Origin: Desulfobacterales bacterium
GTDB lineage: Bacteria; Desulfobacterota; Desulfobacteria; Desulfobacterales; Desulfosalsimonadaceae
Length of the DNA: 64,000 nucleotides
Direction: 5' to 3'
Assembly (NCBI GenBank): GCA_034520365.1
Contig: JAXHNP010000006.1
Coordinates: 365,001-429,000 of the forward strand
Both the position numbers and the translations under genes were made by a program. Position 1 is the stretch's first letter; each line of letters opens with the position of its first letter. Below are positions 19,534 through 31,027 of the stretch, in pieces. Below the pieces are notes generated by a model. The model had not been told where the DNA came from and made no database searches. It was given only the letters and a program-made list of their open reading frames with translations.

Positions 19534-20799
19534 CTACGGACATATGATGATGCCTTCGGCCCACAGGCAGTCCCCGCAGGTGGGAAAGGGGGTGCCGAAG
19601 CAGTCTTCTTCATTGGATTCGGCCAGTTCGCAATCGCAATGATTGCAGGGGGCGAAATCAAAATCGATGACGCGTTTCCGGAACGTGACGTATTCCTGTT
19701 TTTTCCATATCTGATCGATGGTTTTCCGGTTCACATTGCCGACACTGTATCTTCTGACGGTTTTTTCCCGGTCAAGAATGAAACAGGAATGCGAATGCAT
19801 CAACGGAATGCAGGGACTGACCTCTCCGTCCCACCGCACCGCAATGCCGCCCTTGGCGACAAAAGGGCAGCATCTGGCTCTGCCGGCATCTTGCGGCGGA
19901 ACCGTTTTCATTCCGTTAAACCGGGTCAGGAAATCGGTCAGGGGTTCCAGAATCTCCGGACGCCGGTCGATTCGCGGTAGCACCACCCGCGCCGACGCCT
20001 GCCCGGTAGGGCCGTTGGATGTAACGGGGCTGCCGGCGGTCCGCCAGTACAGGATATCGGCCTTATCTTCCCGGGTGTAGGGGAGCACATTGCTGATATA
20101 GATGCGTGTTGCTTTCATCCGTCGGGCGATTTCCGCCAAATCCGGCAGTTCTTCGATGTTCTTCCGGGAAACGACGCATTCGATGCCGATTTCCGGCGTG
20201 TGCAGATTCAGGGCCGACTTACATGTGTTCAGGTGCTCGATGTTCCGGATTAGGTCATTGAGGTCTGCACCGCACCGGATAGCCGAGTAGGAAGCCGGCG
20301 TCGAGCCGTCGACCGACACGACCAGCAGGTCCAGGCCGGATAGTACCAGTTTCCGGGAAAGCTCGGCATTCAGCACCATGCCGTTGGTGATCAGTTCGGT
20401 CCGCACCCCGATTGTTTTCGCCAGTTTAATCATTTCAACGATGCCGGAGTGCATCAGCGGTTCGCCGATTCCCCAGAACGCCATGCGCTCCAATGTTTTG
20501 ACCGATGCCAGGTCTTGAATCAATTTATGAAAGGTACCCATCGGCATCGTGCCGCCGGGTTCATCCCAGGAGTGGCGCATGCAGGTGGTGCAGTCTAAAT
20601 TGCACCGGGTGGTGGGCTCCACGTAGACTTTTCTCAACGAGGAGATACAAAGACGCCGAAACAGCCTCCCCTCTTTTCCCCTGACCCTAAATTTCATGCC
20701 CGCCGGAAATTTCCACCCCCGCTGCCGATCGGCCGGCAGAAAAATTGAATTTTGCGGAATGCTTTTGGTTTTGCTTGTCATTTTGCCATTGATAATCAA
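19534..20799 (-). CDS. Radical SAM/SPASM protein, tungsten-cofactor oxidoreductase maturase type
   Basis: A 421-residue radical SAM protein. VYVEPTTRCNLDCTTCMRHS holds the SAM cluster cysteines; WGIGEP and SVDGSTPASY follow the fold. The C-terminus has many cysteines, ending CNHCDCELAESNEEDCFGTP and FPTCGDCLWAEGIIICP, the hallmark ending of the maturases found with tungsten aldehyde:ferredoxin-oxidoreductase-type enzymes. The partner oxidoreductase is not in the window. The first ~35 residues are poorly conserved, so translation may start later. It is followed on the same strand by lgt. Assignment rests on recalled C-terminal motifs; a different SPASM peptide maturase remains possible. Confidence 0.7.
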   Translation of the reverse strand: MIINGKMTSKTKSIPQNSIFLPADRQRGWKFPAGMKFRVRGKEGRLFRRLCISSLRKVYVEPTTRCNLDCTTCMRHSWDEPGGTMPMGTFHKLIQDLASVKTLERMAFWGIGEPLMHSGIVEMIKLAKTIGVRTELITNGMVLNAELSRKLVLSGLDLLVVSVDGSTPASYSAIRCGADLNDLIRNIEHLNTCKSALNLHTPEIGIECVVSRKNIEELPDLAEIARRMKATRIYISNVLPYTREDKADILYWRTAGSPVTSNGPTGQASARVVLPRIDRRPEILEPLTDFLTRFNGMKTVPPQDAGRARCCPFVAKGGIAVRWDGEVSPCIPLMHSHSCFILDREKTVRRYSVGNVNRKTIDQIWKKQEYVTFRKRVIDFDFAPCNHCDCELAESNEEDCFGTPFPTCGDCLWAEGIIICP

Positions 20800-20878: not shown

Positions 20879-21685
20879 TCATACCGGTCCTCCATTTTTG
20901 CGTTCACAACAGTATGCCCGGGCTATAAACCCTGAGCCGATTATCGCCATGGGCAGGGACAGGAGCTGGCCCATGGTCAGAAAATCCAGGGCCACAAAGC
21001 CAAGCTGGATGTCCGGCTGCCGGAAAAATTCCACCAGAAAGCGGAACAGGCCGTAAAGAAGCAGAAAAAGTCCGAGAACCATGCCTCTGGGCCGCGGCTG
21101 CCGGGAAAAAAACCAGAGGATGAAAAATAAGACCGCGCCTTCCAGCAGGGCTTCATAGAGCTGGCTGGGATGGCGGGAAAACGGGCCGGCCGCCGGCCCG
21201 GGAAAAACCATCGCCCAGGGCACATCGCTGGGCCGGCCCCAGAGCTCGGCGTTGATAAAGTTGCCGATGCGGCCGGCAAAAAGGCCCGGCGGAGCCAGCG
21301 GGGCGACAAAATCCCCCAGGTCCAGGAAATGGATATCATTTCGTTTCGCAAAAACCAAACCCGCCACCCCAATGCCGAGCAGCCCGCCGTGAAAGGACAT
21401 TCCCCCGTGCCAGACTTTTATGATCTCCAGCGGCGCCCGGATCAATGCGGCGCTGTCGTAAAAGATCATGTAGCCAAGTCTGGCGCCGATGACAAGGCCG
21501 ACCATGGCATAGAAGGCCAGGTCCTGAAACTGCGCGGGAGTCATCGGCGAATCTTTGCGCCTGGCGCGCCTGGTGCCCAGGACCAGGGCGGCGGCAAAAC
21601 CGATCACATACATCAGCCCGTACCAGCGCACAGCCAGAGGGCCGATTTCAACGGCCACCGGATCTATTTCGGGCAAAACAATCAT
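20879..21685 (-). CDS. lgt: Prolipoprotein diacylglyceryl transferase
   Basis: Transfers diacylglycerol from phosphatidylglycerol to the lipobox cysteine of prolipoproteins at the inner membrane. The 268-residue protein is complete: VRWYGLMYVIGF, GARLGYMIFYD, VWHGGMSFHGGLLG, then the signature APPGLFAGRIGNFINAELWG-RPSDVPWAMVFP, RHPSQLYEALLEG and RFLVEFFRQPD. Seven membrane helices are expected. The start coincides with partial repeat copy 3. Fragments of another lgt gene occur at 24236-24379 and 30570-31020, so at least one duplicate has been lost. Confidence 0.92.
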   Translation of the reverse strand: MIVLPEIDPVAVEIGPLAVRWYGLMYVIGFAAALVLGTRRARRKDSPMTPAQFQDLAFYAMVGLVIGARLGYMIFYDSAALIRAPLEIIKVWHGGMSFHGGLLGIGVAGLVFAKRNDIHFLDLGDFVAPLAPPGLFAGRIGNFINAELWGRPSDVPWAMVFPGPAAGPFSRHPSQLYEALLEGAVLFFILWFFSRQPRPRGMVLGLFLLLYGLFRFLVEFFRQPDIQLGFVALDFLTMGQLLSLPMAIIGSGFIARAYCCERKNGGPV

Positions 21686-21770
21686 GTTAATCTTGACAAT
21701 TTGTCGGCCATATCTTCAAGTTCTTGCTTTAAGACGGCATCCGGTTCCATTCTGAGGCGTAACCGCTTTA
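21686..21770. repeat. 226-bp repeat, partial copy 3
   Basis: The first ~85 bases of the repeat (from TTAATCTTGACAATTTGTCG to AACCGCTTT) lie between the lgt start and the stop of the next gene. Divergence is greater than between copies 1 and 2. The outer GGGGTCAAATC terminus is missing. Confidence 0.65.
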
Positions 21771-22502
21771 CACCGCAGGTCGGATGCCTTTTGGAATCAG
21801 CATCGGGACTTTTCGTTGATAACTGAAATAGGCTTCTCCAAAAAAATTCGTAAGATCCCGTTCCTCCAGAAACGCCCCGGCAATGATCCATAATGTCCAC
21901 AACACATTAAACAGCATTCGATCCGCGGTTATCTCGGGGATGGCCCAAATAAGGAGGATAGCAAAAAGGTAGAGCGGGTGTCGCACCCACCGGTACGGCC
22001 CGCGGATGATCAGTTGTGCGGGGATTTCCGGTTTGCTCCGAAGCCGGTTGACGATGGGGGCCAGTCCCATGGGATCAAACGGCTGAAGAGACCACCCGCC
22101 CCAGGCCAATCCGGCGATAACCAAAAAGAAAGCGCACCGGATCACCAAGAGTGTCATTTCCGGGGCTGAAAAAAGAATCATCGGCGTCTTCTGCCAGAAA
22201 ATTAAAATTACCAGCAATACCATCGCAGATGAAATGGTAAAGAAGGCGCCGTAAAATTCCTTTGGAATCAATTTCGCCAGCCAGAGTCGAAATCTCTGAC
22301 GAACCATGGTGCTGTGCTGAATAAAAAAAATCGCGGAAAGAAAGGTGTCAAAAACCAGGCTTCCGGCAGTGCCCATGCCCAGATCCACCAGCTCAAAGGA
22401 ACCGTAAAACAGAAACAGCCCCAGTGCCAGGAAAGAGGCCTGCGCCAGGAGAGCCGCGATCAGAATAATTGCGTATCCGGTGGCTGTTTTTAAAATGCGC
22501 AT
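21768..22502 (-). CDS. Isoprenylcysteine carboxyl methyltransferase-like (NnrU/MddA-type) membrane protein
   Basis: A 244-residue integral membrane protein with five to six helices. The C-terminal catalytic motif is GPYRWVRHPLYLFAILLIW followed by LEERDLTNFFGEAYFSYQ, the S-adenosylmethionine-binding segment shared by ICMT, phospholipid methyltransferases, NnrU and the methanethiol S-methyltransferase MddA. The head group methylated cannot be told. It is divergent in phase from lgt and follows the 560-residue putative methyltransferase on the same strand, inside a lipid-flavoured neighbourhood. Confidence 0.7.
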   Translation of the reverse strand: MRILKTATGYAIILIAALLAQASFLALGLFLFYGSFELVDLGMGTAGSLVFDTFLSAIFFIQHSTMVRQRFRLWLAKLIPKEFYGAFFTISSAMVLLVILIFWQKTPMILFSAPEMTLLVIRCAFFLVIAGLAWGGWSLQPFDPMGLAPIVNRLRSKPEIPAQLIIRGPYRWVRHPLYLFAILLIWAIPEITADRMLFNVLWTLWIIAGAFLEERDLTNFFGEAYFSYQRKVPMLIPKGIRPAV

Positions 22503-22549: not shown

Positions 22550-24232
22550 TCACTCTACCAGAAGATAATCGGCAACCCATCCCGGAACACATGCCAATGC
22601 GACATTTCCCTTTATCGTATGCCCCAGGTAAAGCAGCGTATAGAGCCTGACCTTGGATTTGTAATAAACATCCTTTTCGTGCAGTTGTCGCATTTTTTCG
22701 GCAATGGTCAATATATTCGGAGGCAGCAGCGTGCCGTCTTTCCGAATCGTATACCCTGAGTTATGGCCGTCGGCCCCCGGCCAGGAGGCATACTGGGAAG
22801 CCAGTCCCGGCGATAAAGCCAGATATTTAACGTGGGGATGCAGCATGGCGTCAACCCCCCCGTCTGTTTTACCGTGCACAGCTCTTAAATATGCGTTTCC
22901 CCATTCACCGGTATCCTTTAAAAAAGCCTTCAACCGCCAGGAAGGAGAGGAAAAATCCACCGCATAAAATTTTGTGCATTGTCTGCTAATTTCCTTTGCC
23001 GCTTTTTCCATCAATCCTGACGGAATCGCGCCAAGAACATATGCGCTCATTCCAATGACGAGACTGTTTTCCAGATTAAAGTCCGGCCATTTTGACCCAA
23101 GCGTTTCCAAAGCGGTTTTTCCTTCGGTTTTAGCCTGATTCGGCGATTCCATCGGCAGGGTGATATCGTTTTTCAAAAAACATATATTCCCGTCAATCCC
23201 TGTGAGATCAATGCCGGACCCGTTTCTCCCGATTCCCATTTTTTTAAAGCGCACCCGCCCTCCGCAAATCTGCTCCCCGGAGGCTTCCCTTACAATGACC
23301 CGTACTCTTTTTTTCAGCAGCTCCCGGGTTTCCGCTTCCGAGTCGGGCATGGCATAGATCCGTTTTAACAGCTTCTCGGAAAGGTTGCCGACACCGCCGC
23401 CAAAATCAATGATATAGATGGGTTGTTCGGAGTTGACTTTTAAGGCGTCCTTTGCGTCTTTAAGAATCTGATGGCAAATCTCTTTTCGTGCCAGTTGGTC
23501 CTGGGAAACCCAGGGTGAGTCGGGCGACAGATGATTTTCAGGCACTTCGATAACCGGATATGCCCCCATAAATCTTCTTTTTTTACCCCAAACCAAAAAC
23601 TCGGCCGGTGTTTTAATTTTTTCTGTGCCGGCATGGATCAACGCATCCATGTTTGCCGCCACATAAGCGGGGATTCGCCGGGTCATTTCGGCGTGGTACA
23701 CCGGATACCCCGGACCCAGCACCTTATAAAGATCAAAACGGCCCATATCGCTGGCAAACGCGGTTGTCGTCAGGCGGATTTCCGGAGATGTGCTATGCCC
23801 GAGCACCACTCTTTTCGGACAAAAGAGGGCATTGATATTTAAAATCGCAGTGATGATCGCCCGCTGTATTCGGTAACCCGGCAGGCCTTTATAGTGTTGA
23901 CGGACATGCTGCATAAAAGGAAAATTCAAAATCGCCTCGGCCTGCATCGACATCATGTATGCAGGAACATCCTGGTTATGAAAACCGCTCAAGGCTCGAT
24001 GCCCTGGCCGGCCATTCCGCCAATAGGCGGCCGGGTCACCTTCAACCACGGATTGATTTATGGTTTTATTTTCCGTCAGCTTCCGATGGAGAATCTTCTG
24101 TCGACGCATTTTTAAATAGGCGGCGCATTTTCGAACCGGCAACGGAAACACGTCAGAGTATCGGACCGGCTCCCGAGATATATTAAAATCATGATCATTT
24201 CGGATCTCATCAAAAGTATGTTCAATACTCAT
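22550..24232 (-). CDS. Large putative SAM-dependent methyltransferase-like protein (560 aa), family not recognised
   Basis: No signal peptide or membrane helix is evident. The only familiar element is IYIIDFGGGVGNLSEKLLKR (about residue 270), which resembles motif I of class I SAM-dependent methyltransferases, followed by VRVIVREASGEQ and, later, KFYAVDFSSPSW. Residues 1-250, including PAAYWRNGRPGHRALSGFHN and RVVLGHSTSPEIRLTTTAFA, match nothing I know. AAGGATAAC precedes the ATG, and the stop of an lgt fragment lies inside that leader. Its place downstream of the acyl-activation cluster suggests that it modifies the same product, but this is inference. Confidence 0.5.
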   Translation of the reverse strand: MSIEHTFDEIRNDHDFNISREPVRYSDVFPLPVRKCAAYLKMRRQKILHRKLTENKTINQSVVEGDPAAYWRNGRPGHRALSGFHNQDVPAYMMSMQAEAILNFPFMQHVRQHYKGLPGYRIQRAIITAILNINALFCPKRVVLGHSTSPEIRLTTTAFASDMGRFDLYKVLGPGYPVYHAEMTRRIPAYVAANMDALIHAGTEKIKTPAEFLVWGKKRRFMGAYPVIEVPENHLSPDSPWVSQDQLARKEICHQILKDAKDALKVNSEQPIYIIDFGGGVGNLSEKLLKRIYAMPDSEAETRELLKKRVRVIVREASGEQICGGRVRFKKMGIGRNGSGIDLTGIDGNICFLKNDITLPMESPNQAKTEGKTALETLGSKWPDFNLENSLVIGMSAYVLGAIPSGLMEKAAKEISRQCTKFYAVDFSSPSWRLKAFLKDTGEWGNAYLRAVHGKTDGGVDAMLHPHVKYLALSPGLASQYASWPGADGHNSGYTIRKDGTLLPPNILTIAEKMRQLHEKDVYYKSKVRLYTLLYLGHTIKGNVALACVPGWVADYLLVE

Positions 24233-24235
24233 CTG

Positions 24236-24379
24236 TTATCCTTCCCGGTCGCGGTTCCCATCGGGTTTGGTTTTGGCGCGAAAAAGCCCCAATCGCCAGC
24301 CGGCCGTAAACCCCGCCACATACATCAATCCATACCAGTGAATTTGGAATGGCCCCAGGGTCAAGGCCACCGGATCCAT
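24236..24379 (-). pseudogene. lgt: lgt N-terminal fragment
   Basis: 47 codons reading [20 protein letters not shown] then [17 protein letters not shown], the first ~42 residues of a second Lgt, then a stop just before the ribosome site of the 560-residue gene. The continuation PAQFRDLAFYAIVG is found 6.7 kb away at 30961-31020. The fragment overlaps nothing functional; its upstream frame overlaps the end of the thioredoxin gene. Confidence 0.8.
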
Positions 24380-24402
24380 TTCCGGATAATACCACACGGA
24401 TT

Positions 24403-24639
24403 TTATGCCCGGGTCAGGAGCTGGAGAATTTTTTCTTTTTTGGGCAGCCATTTGCCCCGGTGCCGGATCTCGCCGTCCACGATCAGCACCGGGGTCATGG
24501 GAAAATGCTTGATCCAGGATTTAAAATTGGTCAGATGCTCAACATCCGCCTCCATGTTGTTTTCCTCCATCACCTCATTGACCCGCTTGTACAATGTCTT
24601 GCAAAACGGGCAGCCAGGGCCGATCACGTCGATTTTCAT
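24403..24639 (-). CDS. Small thioredoxin/glutaredoxin-fold protein (CPFC)
   Basis: A 78-residue redox-active disulfide protein: [20 protein letters not shown] holds the CPFC active site, and [20 protein letters not shown] contains the cis-proline. This is the short 'thioredoxin family protein' type common in anaerobes. GGAGAAGC precedes the ATG, 31 bases after the SplB-like gene. Its first ~26 codons plus leader are duplicated at 30830-30902. It may reduce a partner in this cluster or serve the radical SAM protein. Confidence 0.85.
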
Positions 24640-24669
24640 GATGCTTCTCCTTTTGTTTCGGGTTACGGA

Positions 24670-25605
24670 CTAATCCGGAAACTGTCCGTCAGTCCGGTCT
24701 TTCCTGTTAAATGGGTGACATACCCACTGGAAGGGTAGATCCTTCAACCTTTCGTCCTTGCATCCGCACACAGACATCGACACATTCTTTTTATGGCATA
24801 AGTTCTGGAAAAGAGCTAATTTTTCAACTTTTTTCACCAAAGGAAATGAAAAAAGGGACCGGTTGGATATGGTCGGCGTTTTTTCCGAAAGCGCTTCCAT
24901 GGACGCCCTGAGATATTCATTCTTTTTCAGGCTTTCCCTCATGGCTTCCGTCAAGATCAGGTATCCGAAAACCGCCTCCCGAACGCCAAGATGTCGGATA
25001 TCCGCGATCATTCTTTCAATATTCTCCACGGTGTCATCGATGCCGGGAAACAGCGGATCAATTCTGACCGCAAGACACCCCAGCCCGGGTATGCCCGCCA
25101 GTTTTTCGAAATTTTTCAACCGGGATTCATAGGCCGGCGCGCCCGGCTCGATGATTTTATTTCGTTTGGCGTCCGGGCTGGTGATCCCCACCTGAATCCC
25201 CATAAGGTCCGGCCGCATGCGGATCACGTCGATGAGATCCTCCGTAAAGAGCCCCTTTGTCAGGAAGAAAACCGAGACGTTGCGCGAAAAGAGAAGCTTC
25301 AGCACGGTTTTCGTGGTCTCAATAATGTCCGCGCGCGATAATGGATCCGATGCATAACTCAGATAAACCACGGGCGGAAATTCCTTCCTCTCGAGGAACT
25401 GGTCGATTTTTAGAGGAATCACGCGATTGTTGTAGTCTGGATGAAACAATTTGTGAACCTTTTTCTCGAGGGGTGAAAAAATGCAGTAAATGCAGTTGTG
25501 GGCGCACCCCAGCGACAGATCCATGACATACCCTTTGCAGGCATTGGGTTCGGGCCTCACATCGGCCTGCATGTCCTTTCGGATACCGAAATGAATGTTT
25601 TTCAT
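24670..25605 (-). CDS. SplB-like radical SAM protein
   Basis: A 311-residue radical SAM protein. LSLGCAHNCIYCIFSP supplies the three cluster cysteines (C-x3-C-x2-C); YLSYASDPL and VFFLTKGLF follow the spore photoproduct lyase/SplB-like pattern of many uncharacterised proteins. The C-terminus has CHKKNVSMSVCGCKDERL, a possible extra cluster site. I place the start at 25605, where GGAGAGGGGG precedes ATGAAAAAC; it overlaps the ACP stop by 4 bases (ATGA). A DNA-repair role is only one option; the coupling to ACP suggests acting on a carrier-bound or lipid substrate. Its 3' end is duplicated near 30903-30970. Confidence 0.7.
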   Translation of the reverse strand: MKNIHFGIRKDMQADVRPEPNACKGYVMDLSLGCAHNCIYCIFSPLEKKVHKLFHPDYNNRVIPLKIDQFLERKEFPPVVYLSYASDPLSRADIIETTKTVLKLLFSRNVSVFFLTKGLFTEDLIDVIRMRPDLMGIQVGITSPDAKRNKIIEPGAPAYESRLKNFEKLAGIPGLGCLAVRIDPLFPGIDDTVENIERMIADIRHLGVREAVFGYLILTEAMRESLKKNEYLRASMEALSEKTPTISNRSLFSFPLVKKVEKLALFQNLCHKKNVSMSVCGCKDERLKDLPFQWVCHPFNRKDRTDGQFPD

Positions 25606-25910
25606 TCCCCCTCTCCCTTCCGCATTTCCTGGATGATGAACCGGCATAATGAGTCAACCGTGAAAGGCTTCTCCTCCAACTGTGACTCCTCGTCAATCCA
25701 GGCTTCAAAATCTAAAACAATGGAAAAAGCCTCATTGACGGCGGTCAAAAGATCAATGGCGTCCAAAGAATCAAATTCCAGGTCTTCCGAGAGCGATGTT
25801 TCAGGAAATACCGGCCCGGCCACCTTGAGCGGCGCCACCCGGGGAAGCAATTGCACCAGGACCTGAAAAACAGCGGGTTTTGTCCATGAACGGTAAATCC
25901 TATCGGTCAT
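25602..25910 (-). CDS. Acyl carrier protein
   Basis: A 102-residue carrier protein. ETSLSEDLEFDSLDAIDLLT contains the DSL serine that takes the 4'-phosphopantetheine arm. Its N- and C-terminal extensions make it longer than housekeeping AcpP (~78 residues), so it is probably dedicated to this cluster. It overlaps the ligase gene upstream and the SplB-like gene downstream, so it is translationally coupled to both. I infer that it receives the acyl group from the adenylate formed by the ligase. Confidence 0.88.
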   Translation of the reverse strand: MTDRIYRSWTKPAVFQVLVQLLPRVAPLKVAGPVFPETSLSEDLEFDSLDAIDLLTAVNEAFSIVLDFEAWIDEESQLEEKPFTVDSLCRFIIQEMRKGEGE

Positions 25911-27636
25911 CTCGATCTCCGGACGCCCGTTTTTTGAAGGTTTCCAAGTACATCCGGCGGCAAAGGGGGCGTTGGACTTTCCCGCTGGTTGTCCGGGGAA
26001 TCGTCATGGGCGCGACAATAACCAGATCATCAAGCGTCAATTCGAGCCGCTTTGAGACGGCCCGCCGGCAATCCATCGCCAGCCGGTGTTTGCCGGCCTT
26101 GTCGCGGACGTCGGCCTCCACCATCATTACAATATCTTCGGTACCTTTTAGGGAAGAAAAAACGCCGAACGCCGCCACGCCGTTTTTTTGAATGCCGTCA
26201 ACGGTGGACACGGCCTGCTCGAAATGTTCCGGGTGATAATTCCCGCCGGCCCGAACAATGATGTCTTTTGACCGGCCCGTGACAAAAATGTCCGCGCCGG
26301 CTCGATATGCCAGATCCCCGGTATCCAGCCAGCCATCATGAAAAACCGCTTTCGTGGCCTCCGGATCACTGAAATATTGATTCATCAGGGACGGCGACCG
26401 GACATAAAGGTTTCCCTGGACCCGCTCGGCGGCCTCATTCCCGGCGGTATCCATGATCCGGACCTCGACCCCGGGAATCGATTTTCCCACCGAGACAACG
26501 GGCGTACTTTCCTTTAAATTCCGCGCTGGTTCGGCAACTCCCTCGGTTTCAAGCCGATGCCGGTCGATCCGGTCGATGGTCGGCCCGGCCCCTGGCGGGG
26601 TAAAACAGACGGCCACCGTGGCCTCCGCCAGGCCGTACACCGGCATGAATGCCCGGGCGCGGAACCCGGCCGGAGCGAATTTTTCCGAAAAAGCGGTCAT
26701 TGTCTCCTCGGTGGCCATTTCAGCCCCGTTCATCGCAATGCGCCATTTCGAAAGATCCATTTGCCCGGAATTCGGCGTTTTGATCTTGTCCACGCATAAT
26801 TGGTAGCCGAAGTTCGGCGCAACCCCGATGGTCCCGGACTTCTCGTGCATCAATCGCAGCCAGGCCCCGGGCGAGGAAATAAACCGGGTCGGAGGCATCA
26901 ATGCCAGGCCGCACCCGGAAAAAAGGGCTTGGCACACACAGCCGAGCAATCCCATGTCATGAAACAACGGGAGCCAGCAGACGATCACATCATCGGGCAG
27001 AGTCCCGATGACGGATCGGACAGCCGTCAGATTGGCGACGATGTTGGCATGGGTCAAGGCAACCGCCTTTTGTCTGCCACCGCTGCCCGAGGAAAATTGA
27101 ATCATAGCGAGTTGCGCGGGTGAAATTTCATCCCGGAATTCCCGCCCAGGGCCGCAACTGGCTTGCTCCAGAGCTTCGGCCGTAAATACATGGCGCATGG
27201 CGGGCGCCTGCGTCTTGATGTCAAGCCCCGTCTTTTTCCTGGCTGTTGAAACGATCAGGGCCGCGGCCCCGATTCCTTCAAGCATTTCGGCCCTGCTTCG
27301 GACAAAGGTATCCATTTTGCGGGGAAGAAACGGCGGAGCGACCAGGGCGGGAACCAGACCCGCCGTCATGGCGCCAAAATAGGCGAAAAGACATTCCACG
27401 CCGGTGGGAAGCATCACGGCCACCCGTTCCCCCGGCGCGAGCTCGGATGCGCGCATGGCCGCCGCATAGCGCAGCACGCCGTCATAAAGCCCGCCGAAAG
27501 AGATAGAGCGGTCGCCCCGGCTTCCCGCCACAGTGCAAAAAATCTTATTCTTCCGACGGACTGCATGATCGGCCATCACATCGCAAAGCGTCCGGGTGTC
27601 CGGTGTTATGCCATACGCCCATTTGAATGCATCCAT
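25900..27636 (-). CDS. Fatty-acyl-AMP ligase (FAAL-like adenylate-forming enzyme)
   Basis: A 578-residue ANL-superfamily enzyme. IQFSSGSGGRQKAVALTHAN is the P-loop-like motif; WLPLFHDMGLLGCVCQ and PTRFISSPGAWLRLM are typical of fatty-acyl-AMP ligases rather than CoA ligases; YGLAEATVAVCF, DTGDLAY and TTSGKVQR complete the set with the C-terminal lysine. FAALs activate a fatty acid as acyl-AMP and load it on an ACP, here presumably the next gene. The ATG directly follows the stop of the acyl-ACP-reductase-like gene. Substrate chain length is not predictable. Confidence 0.88.
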   Translation of the reverse strand: MDAFKWAYGITPDTRTLCDVMADHAVRRKNKIFCTVAGSRGDRSISFGGLYDGVLRYAAAMRASELAPGERVAVMLPTGVECLFAYFGAMTAGLVPALVAPPFLPRKMDTFVRSRAEMLEGIGAAALIVSTARKKTGLDIKTQAPAMRHVFTAEALEQASCGPGREFRDEISPAQLAMIQFSSGSGGRQKAVALTHANIVANLTAVRSVIGTLPDDVIVCWLPLFHDMGLLGCVCQALFSGCGLALMPPTRFISSPGAWLRLMHEKSGTIGVAPNFGYQLCVDKIKTPNSGQMDLSKWRIAMNGAEMATEETMTAFSEKFAPAGFRARAFMPVYGLAEATVAVCFTPPGAGPTIDRIDRHRLETEGVAEPARNLKESTPVVSVGKSIPGVEVRIMDTAGNEAAERVQGNLYVRSPSLMNQYFSDPEATKAVFHDGWLDTGDLAYRAGADIFVTGRSKDIIVRAGGNYHPEHFEQAVSTVDGIQKNGVAAFGVFSSLKGTEDIVMMVEADVRDKAGKHRLAMDCRRAVSKRLELTLDDLVIVAPMTIPRTTSGKVQRPLCRRMYLETFKKRASGDRDDR

Positions 27637-28791
27637 TTACCGCAACTCCCGGATTCTGCCGATTTGATCCTTGTTCCAGATTTTTTCGTCAAAAAAAAAC
27701 GGCGCGGGCTTAAATCCATGTTTCATGGCCAGATCCCAGATGATCCGCATTTTTTCCGGCGTGATGCGGCCCCTGCCCAGGGAAAAACTTTGAAAACGGT
27801 CCTCCAAGGCCAGCACGATAGTTTCGGACCAGCAGCCATAGAGGATATTCGGGTCGGGAAGCCCGGCGTCATAGCTCATCAGCACCGGAGAAGGTGATGC
27901 CAGGAGTCCGCCGGAAAAGAGGAAAATTTTTGATTGATCCATCTCATAATCGGTGAAAATATTTTTGGGATATCCCACATCGCACACAATGGCCCCCGGC
28001 TTGAAATCTCCCGGACAGAAAATGGGGGCCGCGGCGCTTGCCGCGGTGATGACCCCATCCGCCTTTGCCAGCGCCTTTTCACGCCCCATGTCCGCTATCA
28101 CTTCGGCCCTTCCGTTCGTCTTGAGTTCGTCCGCAATCCGTCGCAGATTGAACGCAAACCGCGATACCAGGATCAGCCGCTTGACTTTTGAAACCAGGAA
28201 GCGGCAACAGGCGGTTCCGATATCGCCGGCGGCGCCGATCACGGCGATCGTGGCTTCAGTCATATCCACTCCCAGCAGTTTGCTCGCCCGGATCACACCG
28301 TCCACCGCCGCCATGGCTGTGAGCGTATTGCCGGATGATACGGCCATTTCCGGGACTTTTTCAGCCACCCGCCCGCCCTGATCCCCATCGGCGATGGAGG
28401 TGAACCCGCCCAGTCCGGCTATTCTCGTGCCTTGACGCCCCGCAAGTTCAAGGGCGCCAATTACCTTCTCCACGCACAAAGTACGAAACCGCCGGTTATC
28501 GGATACTTCCAGCATTTCCGGAAGCAGCGGACAGATGATCATGCTTCCCCTGATGGTCCGTCCGGTCCGGGACGTCACCGATATCTGTCGATCCGCAAAC
28601 GGCGGCGTCCATTCAAACAGTTTCAAGAGGAGTTCCCGCCGGGGTTGTTTCAGATCCGGTTTATGATGCTTCAGATACCGGTACAGGTGATCCATATTAA
28701 AAGGATGACCGATAAGGGCGAAATCAGGGGGATCGGTTTTCGTTTGCATCGGATTCAGGCCGTTGTTATCTGCTGTCCGCATCTTATTCAT
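27637..28791 (-). CDS. Long-chain acyl-ACP reductase-like (AAR-type) oxidoreductase
   Basis: Resembles the cyanobacterial reductase that turns acyl-ACP into fatty aldehyde. Shared elements are FALIGHPFNMDHL at the start, ITSRTG-like VTSRTGRTIRGS, CPLLPEML, GLGGFTSI, SSGNTLTAM, the Rossmann motif ATIAVIGAAGDIGTACCRFL, VCDVGYPKNI, and LYGCWSETIVLALED with a cysteine (about 320) at the place of the catalytic cysteine of AAR. The ending EKMRIIWDLAMKHGFKPAP also agrees. The start is uncertain: ATG 28791 overlaps the GMC stop, and MQTKTD is another option. No aldehyde-deformylating oxygenase is near, so the aldehyde or alcohol is probably used otherwise. Confidence 0.78.
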   Translation of the reverse strand: MNKMRTADNNGLNPMQTKTDPPDFALIGHPFNMDHLYRYLKHHKPDLKQPRRELLLKLFEWTPPFADRQISVTSRTGRTIRGSMIICPLLPEMLEVSDNRRFRTLCVEKVIGALELAGRQGTRIAGLGGFTSIADGDQGGRVAEKVPEMAVSSGNTLTAMAAVDGVIRASKLLGVDMTEATIAVIGAAGDIGTACCRFLVSKVKRLILVSRFAFNLRRIADELKTNGRAEVIADMGREKALAKADGVITAASAAAPIFCPGDFKPGAIVCDVGYPKNIFTDYEMDQSKIFLFSGGLLASPSPVLMSYDAGLPDPNILYGCWSETIVLALEDRFQSFSLGRGRITPEKMRIIWDLAMKHGFKPAPFFFDEKIWNKDQIGRIRELR

Positions 28792-30061
28792 TCGCAAGTC
28801 GTTTTCCCAGCCATTTGCCCAGGGCGCAAATGGTCACGATGGGCGGACGGCCCGGCGATTCCGGAAATACGCTGGCGTCGCAGACATATAGATTGCCGAC
28901 GGATTTGCATTCCAGGTCCGGATTGACCACCTCCCCGATCGCCGCCGTGCCGCCGGGATGCCCCCCGGCCGGCTCGGAAACCGTGAGCGCGGATATCGGC
29001 GCGCCGGCCTGTTGCAATATCTTCCCGGCCAGGGCCTCGCCATGTGAAAGGCGGCGGCGATCCTCGTCCGTCAGGAATTTGGAAACCCGCCCGTTTCTGT
29101 CTATCGTTCCAATATGATCATCTTTGGCCTTTACCATGATCCCGTAGGGCGGCCGGTCCCCGAACCAGCCTTTCACTCCCTCAAACATCAACGCCGCGTC
29201 CGCATAGGGGAAAAGAATATATCCCCGGCCGCTATGTTCCTCGATCACCGTGGACATGCATGGCTCGGCAGCCGCAGTGAAATTTGTGCTTCGCCCGTAG
29301 ACAATGCGAAATACATCCAGAAACAAATGGCTTCCCGACGATATCCCGGAATTTTGAAGGATCACCGGCGTACCAAGGCCGCCGGCGCAAAGGATCGTCA
29401 GATCGGCGCTGATTTCGATCGGACCCGCGGCTGTTTCACATGACACGCCAATGGCGCGGCCCCCGGAAACAACAACGGCCATCACCTTTGTTCCGGTCAG
29501 AACCCGCACATTATCCATGAGGCGCAGCTTATCCATCACCCGGCTGGAAGACCATTTGGCCCCCATCGGGCACGTGAGCGTACATTGCCCGCAATGGGTG
29601 CAACGGTCAAAATCAATGAATTTGTCCCACCGGGTGACCGAAAGTTTTAATGCCTTGGCCGACCGGTTGAGCAGCGCGGCATTGGGGCCGATGTGCCGGT
29701 CGGGCATGGGGCGAAGGCCCAGTTCCGTTTCGGTTTCCCGAAACGTTTCCTCCAGATCGATCCCCAGTCCCCCGAATTTATCCTCCAGGCAACGCACCCC
29801 GTGGCCCGCGGCCAGCACCGTGCTGCCGCCCATATTGATTCCTCGTAGAAGAGAATATCCTTCACGGGTTTTGGGGTATTTTCCGTTTTCCTGGTAGAGT
29901 GCCCGGCCCAGCTCCAGCTCCTTCATTCCGGCGAATCTGGACATGTCCGGCCCCTGCTCGACGATCACCACGTCCTTTCCGGCCCGGACGAGTTCCCGGG
30001 CCACCATGGCGCCGCCGGCGCCGGTTCCCACCACGACGGCTTCGGCACGGATACCCTTCAT
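28784..30061 (-). CDS. GMC-type FAD oxidoreductase with internal Fe-S-like cysteine motif
   Basis: A 425-residue flavoprotein. EAVVVGTGAGGAMVARELVR is the FAD-binding GxGxxG fold; GINMGGSTVLAAGHG and the C-terminal GGHPGGTAAIGEVVNPDLEC, VCDASVFPESPGRPP fit the choline-dehydrogenase/long-chain-alcohol-oxidase superfamily. At about residue 150, DRCTHCGQCTLTCPMGAKW could bind an Fe-S cluster. The ATG overlaps the SRPBCC stop (ATGA). In context it may interconvert a long-chain alcohol and aldehyde, or oxidise another lipid group; the cysteines hint at electron transfer to a carrier rather than to oxygen. Confidence 0.75.
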   Translation of the reverse strand: MKGIRAEAVVVGTGAGGAMVARELVRAGKDVVIVEQGPDMSRFAGMKELELGRALYQENGKYPKTREGYSLLRGINMGGSTVLAAGHGVRCLEDKFGGLGIDLEETFRETETELGLRPMPDRHIGPNAALLNRSAKALKLSVTRWDKFIDFDRCTHCGQCTLTCPMGAKWSSSRVMDKLRLMDNVRVLTGTKVMAVVVSGGRAIGVSCETAAGPIEISADLTILCAGGLGTPVILQNSGISSGSHLFLDVFRIVYGRSTNFTAAAEPCMSTVIEEHSGRGYILFPYADAALMFEGVKGWFGDRPPYGIMVKAKDDHIGTIDRNGRVSKFLTDEDRRRLSHGEALAGKILQQAGAPISALTVSEPAGGHPGGTAAIGEVVNPDLECKSVGNLYVCDASVFPESPGRPPIVTICALGKWLGKRLANE

Positions 30062-30573
30062 TCCCAACCTTTTTTTCCGGCGGTTGGTTGTTGTCCGGTT
30101 AATCGGCCGGCGATGGCCTTAAGCATCATTTCGCTGTTTGCCGCTATCTTCTCCCGGAGGATCGGCCCCAGGACCTCTTCAATGATCGGAATGCCGAGTT
30201 TGTATTCTATCGACAGGACCAGGGAAATCCGCCCCTCCGATTCACCCACGCGCCATCTACCCTGAAAAACATCGAAATCGCCTTCAATCGCTTCGAAAAG
30301 AATTTCACGGGTATCATTCCTCATCCGAATATGCTGAACCCAGCAGATGGGCGCCCCGTCGATCTCGGCATCCCAGCGGGTGGTCATCTCGCTTTCCTTC
30401 CGGTCCAGCACCGCGATGGCATTTACCGAAGGCATGTAGAGCGGGTAATCCTCGACATTTTTCATTATCTCATACGCCCGCCGGCCGGTATCGTTTCGGT
30501 CAAGAGAGGAACACGGAACGGGAATCATGGCGGTTACGGCGGTTAAATCCGGTTTCGAATCCTTCATTTTCAT
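30058..30573 (-). CDS. SRPBCC (polyketide cyclase/START-like) lipid-binding fold protein
   Basis: A 171-residue protein. RAYEIMKNVEDYPLYMPSVN followed by the strand-rich ISLVLSIEYKLGIP and the long C-terminal helix VLGPILREKIAANSEMMLKA match the SRPBCC fold (Coq10, aromatase/cyclase, START). These bind hydrophobic ligands in a deep cavity. Its start overlaps the stop of the lgt C-terminal fragment (ATGA), so translation of the remnant could feed into this gene. It heads the coupled cluster SRPBCC-GMC-reductase-ligase-ACP-radical SAM. Confidence 0.75.
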   Translation of the reverse strand: MKMKDSKPDLTAVTAMIPVPCSSLDRNDTGRRAYEIMKNVEDYPLYMPSVNAIAVLDRKESEMTTRWDAEIDGAPICWVQHIRMRNDTREILFEAIEGDFDVFQGRWRVGESEGRISLVLSIEYKLGIPIIEEVLGPILREKIAANSEMMLKAIAGRLTGQQPTAGKKGWE

Positions 30574-30829
30574 TGCGTTTGTTCTTCCCCTTTATGGAAT
30601 GAACGGATTAGCAGGAAAGCGCCGATCAGGACCATGGGAATGGACAGGATCTGCCCCATCGTGACCCAATTCCACAGCAGAGAACCCAACTGCGCATCCG
30701 GCGCTCGTAAAAATTCCACACAGAAACGGAAGACCCCATAACCGAATAAAAACAAACCGGACGCTGGCCCTTCCGGTCGCCAGGGTTCGGTCATAAAACC
30801 GGATAAATCATAGAAGAGCATATAGCCGA
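30570..30829 (-). pseudogene. lgt: lgt C-terminal fragment with internal deletion
   Basis: Reads GLGYMLFYDLSGFMTEPWRP then GPASGLFLFGYGVFRFCVEF and ends NWVTMGQILSIPMVLIGAF, i.e. Lgt residues around 70-80 joined directly to about 190-260. The ~100 residues containing the catalytic signature GRIGNFINAE are missing, so it cannot be active. The frame stays open to the natural stop, which overlaps the SRPBCC start. Its upstream edge joins a duplicated thioredoxin start. Confidence 0.82.
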
Positions 30830-30970
30830 GACCCGCTTGCACAATGTCTTGCAAAACGGGCAGCCAGGGCCGATCACGTCGATTTTCATGATGCTTCTCC
30901 TTCCCGTCCTTTCCTGTTAAAAGGATGACATGCCCACTTTAGCGGAAAGGCTTTTCAGTCTTTCCTCCGG
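30830..30970 (-). repeat. Duplicated SplB-end/thioredoxin-start segment
   Basis: Bases 30830-30902 equal 24580-24652 with one mismatch (first ~26 codons of the CPFC thioredoxin plus leader). Upstream, 30903-30970 is a diverged, frameshifted copy of the 3' end of the SplB-like gene (compare WACHPFNRK with WVCHPFNRK). The segment is embedded between two parts of an lgt remnant. Confidence 0.8.
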
Positions 30971-31020
30971 ATGAGAATGCCGACTATGGCATAGAAAGCC
31001 AGGTCCCGGAATTGTGCGGG
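30961..31020 (-). pseudogene. lgt: lgt internal fragment
   Basis: Reads NPAQFRDLAFYAIVGILI, equal to the second Lgt segment MTPAQFQDLAFYAMVGLVI of the intact copy, then runs into the duplicated SplB end. On the other side it abuts the stop of the BASS transporter gene. Confidence 0.75.
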
Positions 31021-31027
31021 ATTTATG

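Follow-up and report, generated by a model that had tools for sequence, protein, structure and literature searches.

A six-gene run combining an acyl-ACP reductase with a fatty acyl-AMP ligase and a carrier protein in a Desulfobacterales genome, a candidate pathway turning free fatty acids into fatty aldehydes

Acyl-ACP reductases (AAR) are best known from oxygen-dependent alkane synthesis. A gene for a protein of this kind is present in a 64,000-nucleotide stretch of a Desulfobacterales genome, here called the window (positions 365,001 to 429,000 of JAXHNP010000006.1, assembly GCA_034520365.1), which lies on a contig of 1,419,338 bases (C6) of a 4.33-Mb genome in 8 contigs. It is one of six genes in a run that also encodes a fatty acyl-AMP ligase (FAAL), an acyl carrier protein (ACP), a GMC flavoprotein, an SRPBCC protein and a radical S-adenosylmethionine (SAM) protein. 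On balance, the run is read here as a dedicated pathway that converts free fatty acid, once bound to a carrier protein, into fatty aldehyde, followed by flavin and iron-sulphur redox and by tailoring; its end product is probably a minor lipid or secondary metabolite and not bulk ether lipids. The acid-to-aldehyde chemistry is known from other bacteria; it is this gene set that is unusual, and searches of the open-licence PMC literature, judged by titles and the starts of abstracts, turned up no description of the combination.

In the tambjamine system of Pseudoalteromonas tunicata, an adenylating enzyme with an ACP, TamA, feeds the AAR-homologous reductase domain of TamH, from which the aldehyde is released and which gave no product with free acyl-CoA (excerpts of PMC9594044; the other papers cited are likewise drawn on in excerpt). 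A free-acid ligase, a dedicated ACP and an AAR-homologous reductase are likewise encoded by three adjacent genes of the window, and the run is therefore read as leading from acid to acyl-AMP, acyl-ACP and aldehyde. This was also the order of steps in the original prediction, made from the sequence alone; it is the natural reading, and the enzyme families and conserved residues support it. In the window, however, ligase, ACP and reductase are separate proteins, and GMC, SRPBCC and radical-SAM proteins stand in place of the transaminase; no transaminase was found among the ten neighbouring proteins scanned.

With the cyanobacterial alkane pathway of AAR and the oxygen-dependent deformylase ADO (PMC7089970), the window shares the AAR family, the position of the acyl-carrying cysteine, the nucleotide loop and Tyr247, whereas its AAR is encoded beside its own FAAL and ACP and has changes at two of the four residues that contact ADO. 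A scan of ten neighbouring proteins, to which the search for an ADO was confined, found none, and it is for these ten that the earlier statement that no such deformylase is present holds. In PigE-type clusters on plasmids of Pseudoalteromonas xiamenensis and Methylocystis iwaonis, an AAR-like domain, an ACP and AMP-binding genes are also close together, but there an aminotransferase is fused to the AAR-like domain, which does not group with the window AAR in the tree described below.

The six genes are, in run order:

30058..30573, minus strand, SRPBCC / Polyketide_cyc (RatA/Coq10-like) lipid-binding protein (PF03364 61.2 bits, cut-off 23.4)
28784..30067, minus strand, GMC flavoprotein (PF00732 74 bits, PF05199 55 bits, Fer4 27.5 bits, all above cut-off)
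27637..28797, minus strand, AAR, acyl-ACP reductase (PDB 6jzq, E 4.7e-41; TIGR04058 158.5 bits, below the equivalog cut-off of 449.7)
25900..27636, minus strand, FAAL, fatty acyl-AMP ligase (PF00501 199.5 bits; PDB 3pbk, E 8.4e-73)
25602..25910, minus strand, ACP, acyl carrier protein (PF00550 25.6 bits, cut-off 20.8)
24670..25605, minus strand, radical-SAM protein of PA0069/Rv2578c (SPL-like) type (PF04055 41.8 bits)

The coupling of these genes is real, with neighbours overlapping or abutting throughout (by 10, 14, 0, 11, and 4 bp along the run when the longest GMC and AAR starts are used). The interval first proposed for the cluster, 25602-30573, covers five of the six and leaves the radical-SAM gene just outside. 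The GMC start is a TTG at 30067, with an alternative ATG at 30061 that would form an ATGA join with the SRPBCC stop, and the AAR start is a TTG at 28797, with an ATG at 28791 equally possible. The radical-SAM ATG at 25605 overlaps the ACP stop (ATGA), and an ATG further upstream, at 25647, is also in frame. Promoter-like and terminator-like sites are no more frequent than in shuffled sequence, the numbers being about equal, and the run is not clearly marked as foreign by GC content.

The FAAL sequence is nearer to FAAL than to acyl-CoA ligase sequences in the PDB and NCBIfam comparisons. The PDB chains that match it best are those of FAAL or FAAL-like proteins, such as the fatty acyl-adenylate ligase 3pbk, and its top NCBIfam match is fatty acyl-AMP ligase, at 398 bits against a cut-off of 600. 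The ACP keeps the phosphopantetheine serine (Ser48 in DSLDA). Both assignments, as originally predicted, are borne out by Pfam and NCBIfam, and that of FAAL also by the PDB.

The window AAR is identical to the Synechococcus AAR (PDB 6jzq) in 110 of 298 aligned columns (37%). Its C322 aligns with C294, which carries the acyl group in the Synechococcus enzyme (PMC7089970), so that the prediction of an AAR-like reductase with a catalytic-type cysteine stands. The nucleotide loop GATGDIG is present as GAAGDIG, and Tyr247 is kept as Y276. Among the ADO-contact residues (R73, R79, K80, R118), R79 is replaced by E and R118 falls on P in a gapped stretch. The sequence would place the window protein in the same superfamily as the cyanobacterial equivalog TIGR04058, but it is not that equivalog. 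A 17-sequence tree joins it to cyanobacterial AAR (support 95/93) and separates it both from the PigE-type domains and from the AAR-containing proteins of about 700 aa of its own family. This pairing is tentative because the cyanobacterial side is a single sequence on a long branch. A grouping with shikimate-dehydrogenase-like enzymes, named beforehand as the result that would speak against an acyl-ACP reductase, was not seen, in a tree that held no shikimate dehydrogenase. A single-sequence structure model of the AAR (mean predicted local distance difference test score, pLDDT, 41.3) was too poor and was not used.

The remaining three proteins are also as predicted, on Pfam matches and motifs. 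Both domains of the GMC flavoprotein pass their Pfam cut-offs (GMC_oxred_N 74 bits, cut-off 23; GMC_oxred_C 55 bits, cut-off 24.6), and it carries a [4Fe-4S]-type motif, C156-x2-C-x2-C-x3-C166. The full four-cysteine motif is present in its two nearest relatives (L035, 41%, and L036, 37%, by blastp); the remaining relatives compared either have C-x2-C-x3-C or fit none of the patterns used. In genome G349 (L065 2510-10147), one of these two nearest relatives directly follows a 2130-aa nonribosomal peptide synthetase that ends in an NAD_binding_4 thioester-reductase-type domain, and this is a second pairing of a carrier-thioester reductase with the four-cysteine type of GMC. The SRPBCC protein reaches 30.5 bits with the RatA model, far under the cut-off of 258. 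In the radical-SAM protein the motif C34-x3-C-x2-C41 is intact; its NCBIfam matches, Rv2578c (47.0 bits) and PA0069 (45.7 bits), are both below cut-off.

In the proposed route, FAAL would adenylate a free fatty acid and load it on the adjacent ACP, and AAR would take the acyl group onto Cys322 and release the fatty aldehyde with NAD(P)H. The GMC flavoprotein may then interconvert aldehyde and alcohol, probably wired through a [4Fe-4S] cluster to an electron carrier, with the SRPBCC protein holding the hydrophobic chain and the radical-SAM protein, perhaps also a 560-aa protein encoded downstream (U560), tailoring it. Family membership and conserved residues point to the steps up to the aldehyde; the roles given to the GMC, SRPBCC, radical-SAM and U560 proteins are suggested by family, motif and position. 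If the route is as proposed, an AAR with its own ligase and carrier, in a run without ADO in the Desulfobacterota, would mean that the module from acid to aldehyde can be carried into other settings and can supply chemistry that needs no oxygen.

A different continuation would have the radical-SAM protein or another enzyme replace the oxygen-dependent deformylase after AAR, giving a hydrocarbon or modified lipid anaerobically. This would fit the retention of AAR with no ADO among the ten proteins, the two altered ADO-contact residues and the intact radical-SAM motif at the end of the run. It is nevertheless very improbable, given that the radical-SAM protein is of the SPL/PA0069 type, for which no link to aldehydes was found, that the GMC and SRPBCC proteins would go unexplained, and that no AAR is present near the radical-SAM relatives in the two regions searched.

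The original prediction favoured fatty alcohols for ether lipids as the end of the pathway, and this is not supported. AAR and GMC together could indeed yield a fatty alcohol, for coupling to glycerol in membrane ether lipids. The organism is probably akin to the Desulfobacteraceae, from which it would be an anaerobe, and ether lipids are made by a sulfate reducer of this kind (PMC11150832). In that sulfate reducer, Desulfatibacillum alkenivorans, it is however Ger that reduces the ester bonds of intact phospholipids to ethers (PMC11150832), and the window genome encodes, outside the run, two large proteins that combine BadF/BadG and DUF2229 domains (1524 and 1414 aa) and may be Ger; no such protein is within the run. 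Because Ger uses phospholipids and the genome has two proteins with a Ger-like set of domains, the ether-lipid explanation is disfavoured. Proteins with BadF/BadG and DUF2229 domains can serve other roles. The DUF2229 search was also positive in 4 of 14 control genomes. Two of these are Thermotoga maritima, which is reported to have Ger activity (PMC11150832), and Lactococcus lactis; in that genus, Lactococcus cremoris is reported to synthesize plasmalogens (PMC12838417). Ger and PlsA (PMC11150832, PMC12838417) resemble the proposed route in reducing fatty acyl esters independently of oxygen, but the substrate is a phospholipid and not an acyl-ACP. There is also no alkyl-DHAP-synthase-like protein among the ten neighbours scanned, a genome-wide search not having been made, and the cluster is absent from the sampled relatives. 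A supply of fatty alcohol for ether lipids is therefore considered improbable.

In searches of 395 genomes of the phylum (at 1e-42) and 232 of the order (at 1e-37), the window's genome was each time the only one in which a close AAR was found. Elsewhere in the relatives, phylum and order sets there are paralogues at about 30% in larger frames, or none at stricter limits; in the relatives set, such paralogues are present in 25 of 60 genomes, counting that of the window (E 1e-20). Most of these are frames of about 700 aa with the AAR/PigE-like domain on the C-terminal side and an N-terminal part without Pfam match, and there are up to three per genome (L002, L003 and L004 in the window genome, L005-L033 in relatives). 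The cysteine is kept in 29 of the 33 paralogue locus proteins besides the window's, by pattern search, the misses including one contig-end fragment. A single-protein scan of wider genome contigs confirmed no AAR relative, and searches of plasmids gave only aminotransferase-fused AAR domains and distant GMC proteins.

Relatives of the other proteins, counting the window's genome each time, are present in 22 of 297 genomes for GMC, 21 of 198 for FAAL and 23 of 198 for the radical-SAM protein, which among the 60 relatives is found only in the window's genome. No AAR match (tblastn, 1e-4) was found in 20 GMC, 14 FAAL and 2 radical-SAM regions; these regions are part of the matches, several are on short contigs, and one of the GMC regions is that of the window genome's own second GMC. 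The cluster being unconserved had been named beforehand as a result that would count against the prediction, and for the sampled genomes this is largely what was seen. The cluster is rare in this sample; rarity does not show lack of function.

Several observations weigh against a dedicated acid-to-aldehyde route. AAR, FAAL, ACP and the radical-SAM protein all score below the NCBIfam equivalog or subfamily cut-offs, AAR reaching 158.5 bits where TIGR04058 requires 449.7. Of the three arginines that hold the NADPH phosphate (R189, R193, R314), two are kept, the window having R213, N217 and R342. The role of the radical-SAM protein is left unexplained, and the six-gene order was present in no other genome examined. 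The run may also be decaying, because the adjoining paralogue of lgt is broken.

The fragments of this paralogue (lgt2) and the other neighbours of the run are:

20879..21685, minus strand, intact lgt, uncertain whether part of the run (PF01790 278 bits; TIGR00544 264 bits, cut-off 118.9)
21768..22502, minus strand, NnrU/MddA-like membrane methyltransferase-type protein, uncertain whether part of the run (NF045656 125 bits, below the cut-off of 270)
22550..24232, minus strand, U560, with a class-I SAM-methyltransferase-like core (core fold matches; tied to the run by position)
24266..24385, minus strand, N-terminal fragment of lgt2 (57.5% identity to the start of intact Lgt; PF01790 34.9 bits for the open reading frame 24236-24451)
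24403..24639, minus strand, small thioredoxin-like protein that may belong to the run (PF13192 67.1 bits)
30570..30854, minus strand, open reading frame with the C-terminal fragment of lgt2 (PF01790 52 bits; 49% identity over 30597-30827)
30830..30938, minus strand, duplicated sequence from the trx start (73 bp) and from the end of the radical-SAM gene (35 bp), between lgt2 fragments (99% and 86% identical to 24580-24652 and 24694-24728)
30970..31021, minus strand, middle fragment of lgt2 (84.6% DNA identity to intact lgt over 52 bp)

A gap of 30 bp separates the radical-SAM gene from the thioredoxin-like gene, beyond which the lgt2 fragment, U560, the NnrU/MddA-like gene, intact lgt and a radical-SAM/SPASM gene follow on the same strand. 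The N-terminal piece of lgt2 is thus downstream of the run, and its middle and C-terminal pieces are upstream, in a patchwork of lgt, trx and radical-SAM fragments at about 30570-31021, where the frame with the C-terminal piece ends in an ATGA join with the SRPBCC start. This order is not what a simple insertion into lgt would leave, because the C-terminal piece is upstream and the N-terminal piece downstream. The arrangement would suggest tandem duplication of a trx-lgt2-SRPBCC-GMC-AAR-FAAL-ACP-radical-SAM unit followed by deletions. Probably, an lgt paralogue once preceded SRPBCC and is now broken; misassembly at 30570-31021 is possible.

It might be that rearrangement brought the six genes together by chance, with no common pathway, or that the assembly is in decay. 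The patchwork and the other partial duplications nearby, the broken lgt2 and the absence of the gene order from every other genome examined would be in keeping with this. However, none of the six reading frames is interrupted and each overlaps or abuts the next, the catalytic motifs of AAR, ACP and the radical-SAM protein are intact, and the functions fit one chemical sequence, and a chance or decaying assembly is considered unlikely.

U560 has no Pfam or NCBIfam family match, and its sequence profile matched no PDB chain. The predicted structure (mean pLDDT 49.8) is confident only in a core of about residues 250-430, which matches class-I SAM methyltransferases; the model is poor elsewhere and the matches speak for the core only. 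U560 is present in 2 of 148 and 3 of 395 genomes of the phylum, the window's included each time, and at four distinct loci in the wider collection of genome contigs. In two metagenome-assembled genomes (L094; L087, the same contig stretch as L096) it adjoins, in the same direction, an NAD_binding_4/Sterile fatty-acyl reductase, which is unrelated to AAR. At a third locus (L095, which is the stretch also labelled L092) U560 has no reductase noticed next to it; on another contig of that genome, genes for ketosynthases, an ACP, a FabA-like protein and a keto-reductase surround one for an unfused AAR/PigE-family reductase. At the fourth (L093), identity is 88% over residues 383-560, the contig end cutting the protein, and a close AAR was not found in the genome. 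An unfused AAR/PigE-family reductase at L166 4904-14970 (Thermodesulfobacteriota metagenome-assembled genome PL23b_bin.63), which has five ketosynthases around it together with an ACP, a FabA-like protein and a keto-reductase, is perhaps part of a pathway dedicated to a fatty acid or polyketide and ending in aldehyde release.

In the window, the tie between U560 and AAR is one of position only. That AAR, the iron-sulphur GMC, the radical-SAM protein and U560 form an oxygen-independent route to an undescribed lipid or hydrocarbon-like product, with U560 a new methyltransferase-fold family that accompanies fatty-acyl reductases of unrelated fold (AAR in the window, FAR in two further genomes), is doubtful. 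The GMC flavoprotein with its iron-sulphur motif and the U560 family would offer starting points for experiments on what may be a new lipid of anaerobes.

Two genes past U560, at 19534-20799, the radical-SAM/SPASM protein resembles maturases of tungsten oxidoreductases (TIGR04317, 314.9 bits against a cut-off of 380); aldehyde oxidoreductases are among the tungsten enzymes. Partial direct duplications are present at 15900-16199/18007-18306 (90%, inside a sigma-54-activator-like frame), at 17852-18003/18626-18777 (99%) and at 17775-17853/18548-18626/21668-21746 (97/68%), and rearrangement appears to have affected the region between 15.9 and 31 kb.

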